From positions 1 to 33,500 of the forward strand of contig JAFUUC010000049.1 of NCBI GenBank assembly GCA_017471365.1: a stretch of 33,500 bases of DNA. The letters run 5' to 3'. The translations under genes and the position numbers were made by a program. The DNA is from a bacterium. Lineage in GTDB: Bacteria > Cyanobacteriota > Vampirovibrionia > Gastranaerophilales > Gastranaerophilaceae. The notes under the pieces were generated by a model. The model did not search any database. It worked only from the letters and a program-made list of their open reading frames with translations, and was not told where the DNA came from. Below are positions 1 to 9,605 of this stretch, one piece after another. Numbering within the stretch: position 1 is the first letter of the stretch; every line of letters starts with the position of its first letter.

Positions 1-753
1 ATTACTAAATTAAACACAGCAGACGCACTAGGACTGGGAACAGTAACTGATGAACAAGAATTTATGGCACCTGTTGCAATGGTATTAGCTGACGGTACAC
101 CAATGTTTCTTACTTATAATAAGAAATGTATATCAGATCCTGATAGTATAAAGTCTGATAACAAGAAAATACACTCATGTGTAGACGGATTGTATGACTT
201 AAATGGCAGTCGCATGCCAAATAGAGTGGGCAAAGATTTGACTGCTATGAATAAAGCTTCAATTAATATTGCAGAAGGTCCTGCTGTTGTTGGTTCTATA
301 GCTGGTTATGATTTAATAAAACTAGCAGATACACCACCGGCAAAAAACTGTGAAACTTACAAGAGTGACTTTCCTGGAATAATATCTCATTGTTCAACTT
401 CAGGAGAAAGAGATTATTGGGTAGGAGCATTGGTAACGTGTAACGAAATGGGAGGTCACTTACCTACCATGATAGAACTGTTAAACATAGCTAGAGCAGT
501 ATATCCTAGCATTGCAGGCGGCATAGGTACATACTCCGGCCACCAATCGGGAAGCTGGGATACTACAGAAGTAGCAAAACTGGGCATTGATCCTTCTTCT
601 GTTTCGGACTTCCGCCTGTGGTCGTCAGAGGAGTACTCGCCTACGAGCGGTACCTCTCGCGACCGTCGCTTCGACAGTGGTGGCACGGGCGGTGATTACA
701 CCAACGATCGCTATAGCAACGTCCCGAGGTTCGTTTGCCTGGCGGATACTTAA
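1..753 (+). CDS. Pilin-like protein with C-type-lectin-like hypervariable C-terminus (5' end missing)
   Basis: The frame is open from base 1, so the true start and any prepilin leader lie upstream; ATG 64 is internal. The N-terminal half of what is visible matches the pilin-like protein at 8847-9605: both have LADG followed by a hydrophobic stretch, then a cysteine pair, DxNGSxMPN and an acidic residue. The C-terminal part (window-frame residues about 110-250) looks like a C-type lectin/FGE-like fold: Cys/Trp spacing, then LWSSEEYS, a Gly/Arg/Asp/Ser/Tyr-rich stretch and a closing PRFVCLADT. That ending is typical of DGR target proteins, whose variable residues form an exposed ligand-binding face. 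GC rises abruptly to about 60% over the last 150 bases. Likely a surface-exposed or pilus-associated adhesin with a diversifiable tip. The pilin relationship rests on the paralogue; the DGR reading is strong inference. Confidence 0.8.
   Translation: MTKLNTADALGLGTVTDEQEFMAPVAMVLADGTPMFLTYNKKCISDPDSIKSDNKKIHSCVDGLYDLNGSRMPNRVGKDLTAMNKASINIAEGPAVVGSIAGYDLIKLADTPPAKNCETYKSDFPGIISHCSTSGERDYWVGALVTCNEMGGHLPTMIELLNIARAVYPSIAGGIGTYSGHQSGSWDTTEVAKLGIDPSSVSDFRLWSSEEYSPTSGTSRDRRFDSGGTGGDYTNDRYSNVPRFVCLADT
601..750 (+). other. Candidate DGR variable region (VR)
   Basis: I count about 90 G/C in 150 bases (60%) against roughly 30% around it. Between 634 and 723, 27 of 30 codons end in C or T (tac, agc, ggt, acc, cgc, gac, ttc, ggc and so on), although this genome prefers A/T-ending codons of all kinds. 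That is the footprint expected when AAC/AAT codons of a template repeat have their adenines randomised and the final pyrimidine is kept. The stretch lies at the extreme 3' end of a lectin-like gene and encodes the LWSSEEYS...RFVCL frame seen in DGR targets. No second copy (template repeat) or reverse transcriptase was found in the window, so activity cannot be judged. Confidence 0.72.
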
Positions 754-759
754 TACTGT

Positions 760-779
760 CAAATTATCTTTGTAATTTG
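760..779 (+). other. Hairpin just downstream of the variable region
   Basis: CAAATTA (760-766) and TAATTTG (773-779) form a perfect 7-bp stem with a 6-base loop, starting 7 bases after the stop codon. No U-tract follows, so it is a poor intrinsic terminator. In the Bordetella phage DGR, a hairpin/cruciform just 3' of the variable region is needed for target recognition, and this one is in the comparable place. It also overlaps the -35 element of the alr promoter. Confidence 0.4.
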
Positions 780-805
780 ATTACTTCATAATTTTGTCTT
801 ATAAT
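777..805 (+). promoter_or_regulatory. alr promoter
   Basis: TTGATT (777-782), a 17-base spacer and TATAAT (800-805). The -10 ends 7 bases before ATG 813, so the transcript should begin at or next to the start codon (leaderless). No Shine-Dalgarno is visible. Confidence 0.65.
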
Positions 806-7491: not shown

Positions 7492-8850
7492 ATGAAAATA
7501 TTTGGAATAACAAGTACAATTAATTTTGGATATAATAAACAGCTCAATGATACTGTAAATCAAAAACTTGAACGGAATAAAGGCAATAAAGAGTTATCAC
7601 AAACTCTTTTAAGAGTTAACAGGTTTTGTAATGAGCTGGAAGATAATTTAAGAAAAGCTGAAAATAATCGTCAATATGAATTGATGGAAACATATCAGGA
7701 TATTTTTGTAACCACAAAAATTATGATTGCTGGCAAAATTGATAAACGTTTTCCACAATTAAATTACCGAAAAACCGAAATTGAAGGTTATAAATCTGAA
7801 ATAAAAAAAAGAAAGATTAAAAATGAATTACACTGGCTTCGAGAAGTTGTTGATGGTCTCGAAACAGGTGAAGAATTTAAGGATCTAATTGATGAAGTTC
7901 ATTCAAAGGCAGAAACAAAAACTTCTGCAACACAAAATAATGCAGCTACAACTGCGAAATCTAAAAATGAAACTTGTAATTATGTTGAGAAATTTGAGCC
8001 AAATGATTATTCTCCAAGGGGATTTGAAAGTTTGGGCGGTTTAGAGGATGTTAAAGAACTTTTGCGAGATAGAATTCTGGAACCGCTAAATAATCCAGAA
8101 CAAGCAAAGCGTGATGAAATTGAATATGGATTGCGAGCACCTCGTGGAGAACTTTTTTACGGACCACCGGGATGTGGAAAAACATCTATAATGGAGGCCC
8201 TTTCTATGGAAGCAGGTGTTCCACTATTTAAGCTAAAAGTAGGTAAATCCGGATCTATATATGTAAACGGTTCATCATTAAATGTCCAAAAAGCATATGA
8301 ATACGTTAAAAAAATTGCTAAAGAAACGGGGAAACCGGTATTTCTTGCAATAGATGAAATGGAAGCGATGACATCAAAACGTGATACAAAGGGCAATAGC
8401 GAGGAAACACAAAAACTTGTAGGTACACTTTTACAAATAATAGAAGATTCCAGAAGTAGCAATGTTATTATTTTAGGTGCGACAAATCTGTTTGATATGG
8501 TAGATGATGCTGTGAAAAGTCGTATGGATGATATGATTTATATTGGTCTTCCGGATGATAAAACAAGAGAAAAAGTGTTACAAATTCACTTGAATAAAAG
8601 GAAAAAAGGTCAGGCTCTTGCTTCAAATCCAGAGGAACTCCGTAAAGTCGTATTAATGACAAAAGGTTTTTCTAACAGAGATATATCAATCCTTGTAGAT
8701 GATGCTGCTAAAATTGCGAGAAAAGAAGGCTACAGAAATATCATCGCACAGGACTTTCTTATTCCTGTACAAAAAAGAGAACGATTTAAGATAAAAGAAG
8801 AATTATATAAGGATAAAAATTCCCGACCTGTAATTGGATATAATCACTAA
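7492..8850 (+). CDS. AAA-family ATPase (classic Vps4/FtsH-like clade)
   Basis: 452 aa from ATG 7492 (MKIFGITSTINFGYN); an in-frame ATG at 7459 would add 11 residues, and neither has a strong Shine-Dalgarno. The N-terminal 150 residues are charged and helical, probably coiled coil. The AAA module has FESLGGLEDVKELL, Walker A GPPGCGKT (224-231), Walker B FLAIDEME (D288/E289), sensor 1 Asn332 in GATN, and SRMDD with a putative arginine finger at R344 (one Arg where classic members have two). GFSNRDISILVDDAA is the C-terminal helical lid. It likely forms a ring that remodels proteins, but no protease domain or substrate adaptor is present. The 3' end overlaps the convergent pilin-like gene by 4 bases. 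Confidence 0.82.
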   Translation: MKIFGITSTINFGYNKQLNDTVNQKLERNKGNKELSQTLLRVNRFCNELEDNLRKAENNRQYELMETYQDIFVTTKIMIAGKIDKRFPQLNYRKTEIEGYKSEIKKRKIKNELHWLREVVDGLETGEEFKDLIDEVHSKAETKTSATQNNAATTAKSKNETCNYVEKFEPNDYSPRGFESLGGLEDVKELLRDRILEPLNNPEQAKRDEIEYGLRAPRGELFYGPPGCGKTSIMEALSMEAGVPLFKLKVGKSGSIYVNGSSLNVQKAYEYVKKIAKETGKPVFLAIDEMEAMTSKRDTKGNSEETQKLVGTLLQIIEDSRSSNVIILGATNLFDMVDDAVKSRMDDMIYIGLPDDKTREKVLQIHLNKRKKGQALASNPEELRKVVLMTKGFSNRDISILVDDAAKIARKEGYRNIIAQDFLIPVQKRERFKIKEELYKDKNSRPVIGYNH

Positions 8851-9605
8851 TCTCCTTCAGGTTCCGGTTCTGTTTCTGTTGAATTATTTGTTTTGCCGCT
8901 GCGATCAATGTTACTGTATCTTGAAGCCATAAGAACATATCTGCCGGCTTTAGTTGAAGGTTCGACTGTGCAATCGTAGAAATTTACAGGATATATATCC
9001 GTAAGATAATTTAAGTTGTCTGAAACGCTGCAATCACTTGCATTTGCATTCCCTCCGTCACAAGAAACTTCCTTATTCGGCATTGATGAACCATTTACAT
9101 CGATCCAACCTTGACAAATAGATACCTCTTTGGTGCAATTAGCCGCATCTTCAGGGAACACAAACATCGAACCGTCTGCAAGCATGTATGCATGGTATCC
9201 TACAGGTACACCATCTTCCGGTAGGTAGTCTAGACCGGAACCTTCTGCTGCTTTAGTAACTTTGTATTGAATATTTTTGTCAGTTAGTAATGTTGAAGCA
9301 TCTTCTACATACAAACTTGCGGTTAGTGTGTCGTTAAATAAGGCACATAATGTCAAAACTTCGTCGGAAGTGTCATTCGCTCCATCTGCGGTACAAGGTT
9401 CTGCGGCATCTCTGTAGCTTAAACCATTCATCGCTAATCCGCCAATAGCAACTTGTTTCAGAGTCGCAATGTCTTTTTTAAGCTGAGTTGCATATTTTAA
9501 AATTCTAATATGAGCGTGCAAAGTTGGAATAACCATTGTCGCTACAACACCGATAATACCCAGTGTTATCAACGTTTCCGCAAGAGTGAATCCTCGTTTT
9601 CCCAT
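8847..9605 (-). CDS. Prepilin-like protein (type IV pilin/pseudopilin leader)
   Basis: 252 aa. MGKRG|FTLAE is a textbook prepilin peptidase site (cleavage after Gly5, Glu at mature +5), followed by the hydrophobic helix LITLGIIGVVATMVIPTL. The globular part has several cysteines and shares LADGSMFVF and DVNGSSMPN with the gene at window position 1-753, so the two are paralogues. This one lacks a lectin-like variable tail and ends in an acidic, disordered TETEPEPEGD. A GAGG lies 8 bases before the start, unlike the leaderless genes nearby. Probably an exported pilus or type II secretion-like surface component; no assembly genes (ATPase, PilC, PilD) are adjacent. Confidence 0.85.
   Translation of the reverse strand: MGKRGFTLAETLITLGIIGVVATMVIPTLHAHIRILKYATQLKKDIATLKQVAIGGLAMNGLSYRDAAEPCTADGANDTSDEVLTLCALFNDTLTASLYVEDASTLLTDKNIQYKVTKAAEGSGLDYLPEDGVPVGYHAYMLADGSMFVFPEDAANCTKEVSICQGWIDVNGSSMPNKEVSCDGGNANASDCSVSDNLNYLTDIYPVNFYDCTVEPSTKAGRYVLMASRYSNIDRSGKTNNSTETEPEPEGD

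Follow-up and report, generated by a model that had tools for sequence, protein, structure and literature searches.

A GC-rich gene end with C- or T-ending codons

Which process has shaped the end of the first gene in the window, the 33.5-kb stretch of DNA analysed here (33,500 nucleotides, contig C50 of the source assembly)? The open frame of this prepilin-like gene (1..753, + strand) comprises 250 codons plus a stop and reaches the contig start, which truncates the gene and leaves its N-terminus outside the window. A sequence-only reading had proposed that its 3' end is a variable region (VR) of the diversity-generating retroelement (DGR) type, derived from an AAY-rich template by adenine mutagenesis.

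The GC content of positions 601-750 was 0.60, against 0.39 for positions 1-600 and 0.31 for the whole window, in agreement with the ~60% GC that had been noted for the last 150 bases of the gene in low-GC surroundings. Segments of 150 bp with a GC content of 0.60 started at positions 595-601 and nowhere else in the 33.5 kb. Our recount of codons ending in C or T between positions 634 and 723 also returned the reported 27/30, compared to 98/200 in the remaining gene (binomial p = 3e-6), and the translated C-terminal end, LWSSEEYSPTSGTSRDRRFDSGGTGGDYTNDRYSNVPRFVCLADT, was of the LWSSEEYS...PRFVCLADT type previously read from the sequence. The window contains a second prepilin-like gene (8847-9605, - strand), with an N_methyl motif over the cut-off and without a lectin-like VR tail.

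Identification of the template repeat

The source assembly (own genome, G000) has 1.81 Mb in 109 contigs and is 97% complete. The alignment of 21 copies of the gene end, ungapped at the 3' end, revealed a fixed scaffold with variable codons that were near-random at bases 1 and 2 and fixed as C or T at the third. We have predicted a template from the columns of these 21 copies by writing every variable codon as AAC or AAT. This prediction was then used to search the genome. The best match (94%) was found at G000:C101:30231-30370 (- strand), all other sites being at or below 87%. The sequence of this template repeat (TR), SVSNFNLWSSEENSSTSNNSRNRNFNSGNTNGNNNNNRNNNNPRFVCLGD, carries asparagine codons where the genes vary.

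The window VR (592..742, + strand) aligned to the TR without gaps, with 26/49 template adenines and 2/102 other bases changed. For the VR core, this bias towards adenines had a Fisher p of 6e-13. According to the TR-window alignment and the per-position change counts over the close VRs defined below, the 19 template AAC/AAT codons span 607..723 (+ strand), with their first bases at 607, 613, 634, 649, 652, 661, 667, 673, 682, 688, 694, 697, 700, 703, 706, 712, 715, 718 and 721. Because of their NNY form, these variable codons are unable to become stops.

An initiation-of-mutagenic-homing (IMH) site is expected at the VR 3' end. In the window, this end (719..742, + strand) is of the '..C CCG AGG TTC GTT TGC CT' type, the same as in the TR found, and the homology with the TR stops here, before the stop codon. 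The VR ends share ..AGGTTCGTTTGCCT. A BPP-1-like hairpin common to all VRs was sought downstream of 45 copies and not found. Stems of at least 8 bp were present downstream of 21/45 copies, with differing sequences, many being terminator-like or dispersed-repeat-like. Directly 3' of the window gene lies the inverted repeat TCAAATTA-TCTTTG-TAATTTGA (759..780, + strand), which is absent from the other copies.

An Avd ORF of 113 aa starts ~55 bp after the TR and is followed by secA. Its product matched PF22296 (Pfam bAvd) over the cut-off (E = 1.6e-12) and NF033474 (DivGenRetAVD) under its cut-off (1.1e-14). The TR and the avd gene share one open frame of 190 codons (G000:C101:29837-30406, - strand), and read-through from the TR into Avd could occur.

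The near-copy of 601-750 differing at its own adenines, which the sequence-only reading had anticipated, thus exists on C101, and the TR/VR pair with the adjoining avd gene bears out the proposed origin of the gene end. The expectation that this copy would lie beside a reverse transcriptase (RT) gene held in part: the TR adjoins avd, but the RT is absent from the assembly, being present with TR, Avd and prepilin targets in same-genus genomes. We are therefore highly confident that the last ~50 codons of the prepilin-like window gene are a DGR variable region, rewritten from a template with mutation at its adenines during copying.

The VR family across the genome

The window protein had 113 matching stretches in its own genome, a figure that counts the halves of contig-split genes separately and so exceeds the gene number. 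At least 45 VRs could be aligned to the C101 TR over the whole genome, and the variation described here is that between these paralogues. Pooling these 45, 1067/2124 adenines were changed, against 370/4328 other bases. We have classed as close those with at most four non-adenine changes outside TR columns 126-135, the segment that distinguishes the template types (see below). By this definition, 24 of the 45 are close. Three VRs (on C66, C69 and C92) had no non-adenine change in 102 positions while carrying 18-22 adenine changes, and eight had none outside the type segment, which argues for recent rewriting.

Across the 24 close VRs, 9/407 third bases of AAY codons were changed, a pattern that amino-acid selection without a template is unable to explain. 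Pairs of close VRs were 97% identical at the non-adenine VR positions versus 81% over the upstream 150 bases, a contrast that repeated copying of VRs from one template would be expected to produce. The reading frame was intact through the VR in 42/42 tested copies, with the stop 47-52 codons after the VR start. The VRs of these 42 copies are at the 3' ends of intact target genes.

That the copies represent one locus assembled many times was considered and rejected, since most downstream flanks differ, having nothing in common but short stretches or dispersed repeats. In a few pairs of copies, 60-150 bp are shared, and these pairs may be recent duplicates. One target is shortened (L103, G000:C23:10017-10156 and upstream): it lacks a large part of the middle region, so that the prepilin signal leads into the VR tail. 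The product measures 195 aa counted from the motif, and its VR frame is intact.

Dispersed intergenic repeats with CCCTCCCTGACTAGGGAGGG and CCCTTCCCTTGTTAGGGAAGGG hairpins occur near the TR and VR genes (L097:2570-2990, G000:C101) and also after several VRs, e.g., at L101, L112 and L114. Similar-looking translated repeats, ..PPLVAKAAFTLAE and ..GLFPARGKAAFTLAE, run into prepilin leaders. Such dispersed repeats might have helped the prepilin genes to spread. Searches of viral contigs returned neither the exact TR pattern nor relatives of the window protein.

Mutation spectrum

In 21 close VRs, 58% of the adenines in AAY codons were changed, compared to 5/189 of the isolated template adenines (TCA, GAG, ACG, AGT, AGC, AGG). 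Any change at the third base of TCA is silent and it was changed in 0/24 close VRs; protein selection is therefore unable to explain its sparing. The RT of the C101-type DGR may prefer an AA context. In related genomes, nine TR/VR pairs had changes at 21/83 isolated versus 125/236 paired adenines, i.e., changes at the isolated ones were rarer, not rare.

The first A of AAC mostly became T and that of AAT mostly G (p = 2e-7), the same direction as measured for the BPP-1 RT (PMC12875486). The BPP-1 enzyme also yields an excess of C at the second A of AAC (PMC12875486), which was absent from the VR error spectrum obtained here.

Two template types

The VR 3' ends fall into two types, CCG AGG (the window type, for which the TR was found) and TCC GGT NNC AGG. 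Among the 24 close VRs, 9 are of the former and 11 of the latter type, with 4 unassigned. A template for the TCC GGT NNC AGG VRs was sought in the assembly and not found. This leaves two options: the assembly lacks a second TR, or the TR has itself been altered. For this reason, the use of one template by all 24 is secure for the first type only. One template has rewritten at least 9 prepilin paralogues scattered through the genome, the more likely number being 24 to 45, and most of these lie far away from it.

Prepilin signal and tail of the target proteins

Full-length copies measured ~350-365 aa from the prepilin motif and were composed of a class III prepilin signal (FTLAE followed by a hydrophobic helix), a middle region and the VR tail. 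One full-length paralogue matched PF07963 (N_methyl) with 27.7 bits, against a cut-off of 21.2. The description of the window gene as pilin-like was sustained by this signal in its full-length paralogues; in the window copy itself, which has no N-terminus, it is presumed. A prepilin peptidase candidate on C15 was below the cut-off. The family profile aligned over 189 columns (probability 96.7%) with the RT-linked prepilin target of genome G008, which adjoins an intact TR and RT.

The tail resembles the C-type-lectin-like tails of DGR targets. Its match to Pfam Lectin_C was weak (E = 0.08-0.13), as was its profile match to an Lcl_C DGR target. The family profile had no match among solved structures, and single-sequence structure prediction of the window protein gave an unusable model (pLDDT 38). 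We infer that the target products are exported as pilus-like subunits and displayed at the surface, where their variable face would bind ligands, and that the DGR may be presently active.

Cassettes of related genomes and the missing RT

We have searched the 97%-complete, 109-contig assembly for an RT by profile and with a same-genus RT sequence, and found none. C101 has the order target - TR - Avd and stops inside the target, where relatives place the RT. The analysis of genomes took in the stretches around matches. Among same-genus genomes, those whose cassette is most like that of C101 include G042, with the order RT - prepilin target - TR - Avd. This order was pieced together from two contigs, the ends of which join within the target gene, and 23/24 of the G042 TR/VR mismatches were at adenine. 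The gene order of G004 was consistent with that of G042. In G008, a single contig contained the prepilin VR, Avd, TR and RT, with 19/20 mismatches at adenine. Further complete DGR cassettes with adenine-only TR/VR differences were observed in other genomes of the same taxonomic order, namely G002 (L140, L141), G026 (L138), G049 (L202, L209) and G055 (L206), some having phage-like or Lcl_C targets.

Other relatives have expanded prepilin VR families in parallel. The same-genus genome G034 has an independent prepilin family with the same NNC pattern and at least 12 VRs; no RT or Avd was detected in it and no template was recognised. G043, another relative with such an expansion, has RT fragments only. 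An avd search of genome contigs yielded a single isolated Avd, from a different Gastranaerophilales MAG; neither an RT nor a TR/VR pair was present within 5 kb of it.

The simplest reading places an RT just past the C101 break: many copies share the sequence at this point, and a short contig with the RT could have stayed unbinned. We thus consider it probable that the RT falls in a gap of the assembly next to the C101 target gene, rather than being recently lost. Contigs break inside repeated target genes, and short-read assemblies can for that reason hide both DGR targets and RT genes.

Alternative origins of the variable tails

The data were weighed against three other origins, of which a fossil DGR is the least unlikely. 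In such a case, the RT would have been lost from the species, the VRs would record past rewriting, and the family would now change by ordinary mutation and recombination. The lack of an RT in the assembly would be compatible with this, as would the RT fragments of G043 and the VRs of G034 with neither detected RT or Avd nor a recognised template; Treponema denticola isolates having VRs without RT or TR have been published (PMC4891356). Speaking against it are the intact TR and Avd, the end of C101 exactly at the expected RT site, and the VRs free of non-adenine change in all 102 positions (three) or outside the type segment (eight), suggestive of recent rewriting. Hence, we regard a fossil DGR as possible but rather doubtful.

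Gene conversion among pilin paralogues, resembling pilE/pilS and producing a mosaic tail with no DGR involved, would fit the many dispersed pilin-like copies and the two 3' types. But recombination reshuffles existing sequence, whereas the new bases here are confined to the adenine positions of one non-coding copy beside Avd, and the copies are open genes instead of silent fragments, making this origin very improbable. Strong positive selection on a duplicated adhesin gene, acting with no special mutation mechanism, would account for variable codons being changed mostly at their first two positions. It is hardly credible, given that the silent third positions of the same codons changed at the 9/407 rate reported above while the upstream sequence diverged by 19%, and that each variable codon is AAY in one template.

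Returning to the DGR reading, an RT prone to errors at template adenines would make cDNA from the RNA of the single template beside the avd gene, and this cDNA would replace the 3' ends of the target genes. The NNY codons would then vary without generating stops and the lectin-like scaffold would stay fixed. We lean slightly towards a single, still-active template acting in trans on 24-45 dispersed prepilin genes of the 1.8-Mb genome, so that each cell would carry dozens of independently mutating fibre tips. If true, no other single genome that we have found would have as many separate DGR target genes. If active, the system would lend itself to asking, in a natural setting, what many self-mutating surface proteins bring to a bacterium (adhesion, escape from phages, choice of partners) and how a single template reaches many targets.

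Comparison with known systems

A literature search, with most subscription papers outside its scope, found no report of DGRs in Melainabacteria or of retroelements in Gastranaerophilales. Multi-target DGRs have been described elsewhere: the TvpA family of T. denticola has 2-7 targets per isolate (PMC4891356), Thiohalocapsa PB-PSB1 has 15 targets over nine loci (PMC10907252), Trichodesmium has 18 loci with TR/VR homology (PMC8867640), and 76 remote targets are distributed across a set of cyanobacterial genomes (PMC7517822). According to one survey, the VR copies of a single TR can number from a dozen to hundreds; its detailed example has 21 merged VRs in one gene (PMC6642488). The system described here shares with TvpA, Trichodesmium and Thiohalocapsa one AAY-rich template with an Avd or accessory gene, and VRs with adenine-limited changes at the 3' ends of remote paralogues. 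It differs from these three in the number of VRs related to one template sequence (24 close and 45 detectable) and in an assembly without RT. In addition, the T. denticola targets are lipoproteins, whereas those found here have type IV prepilin signals.

The cassettes of G042, G004 and G008 likewise combine a prepilin target with a WSS...C tail, a TR and Avd. A DGR-type RT is present in these genomes, and the window protein matches them rarely or not at all, unlike the window's own genome with its 113 stretches and no RT in the assembly. In the pilE/pilS system, too, a type IV pilin-like protein varies in its C-terminal part, but there the variation arises by recombination from silent copies and here it follows an adenine-templated pattern in open genes.

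The BPP-1 DGR (Mtd, brt, avd) has in common with the present one the Avd family, the TR/VR logic and the preference for T at the first A of AAC, not of AAT. It acts on one target, a phage tail protein, in contrast to the dispersed prepilin genes found here, and its RT mutates adenines in all contexts (PMC12875486), whereas isolated adenines are spared in our VRs, which also lack its C excess. The kind of system is thus known, and the target class and target number look new: the cellular DGRs that we have found in published work serve one to ~18 genes, and here dozens of pilin-like genes of a small-genome gut bacterium would be served by one template.
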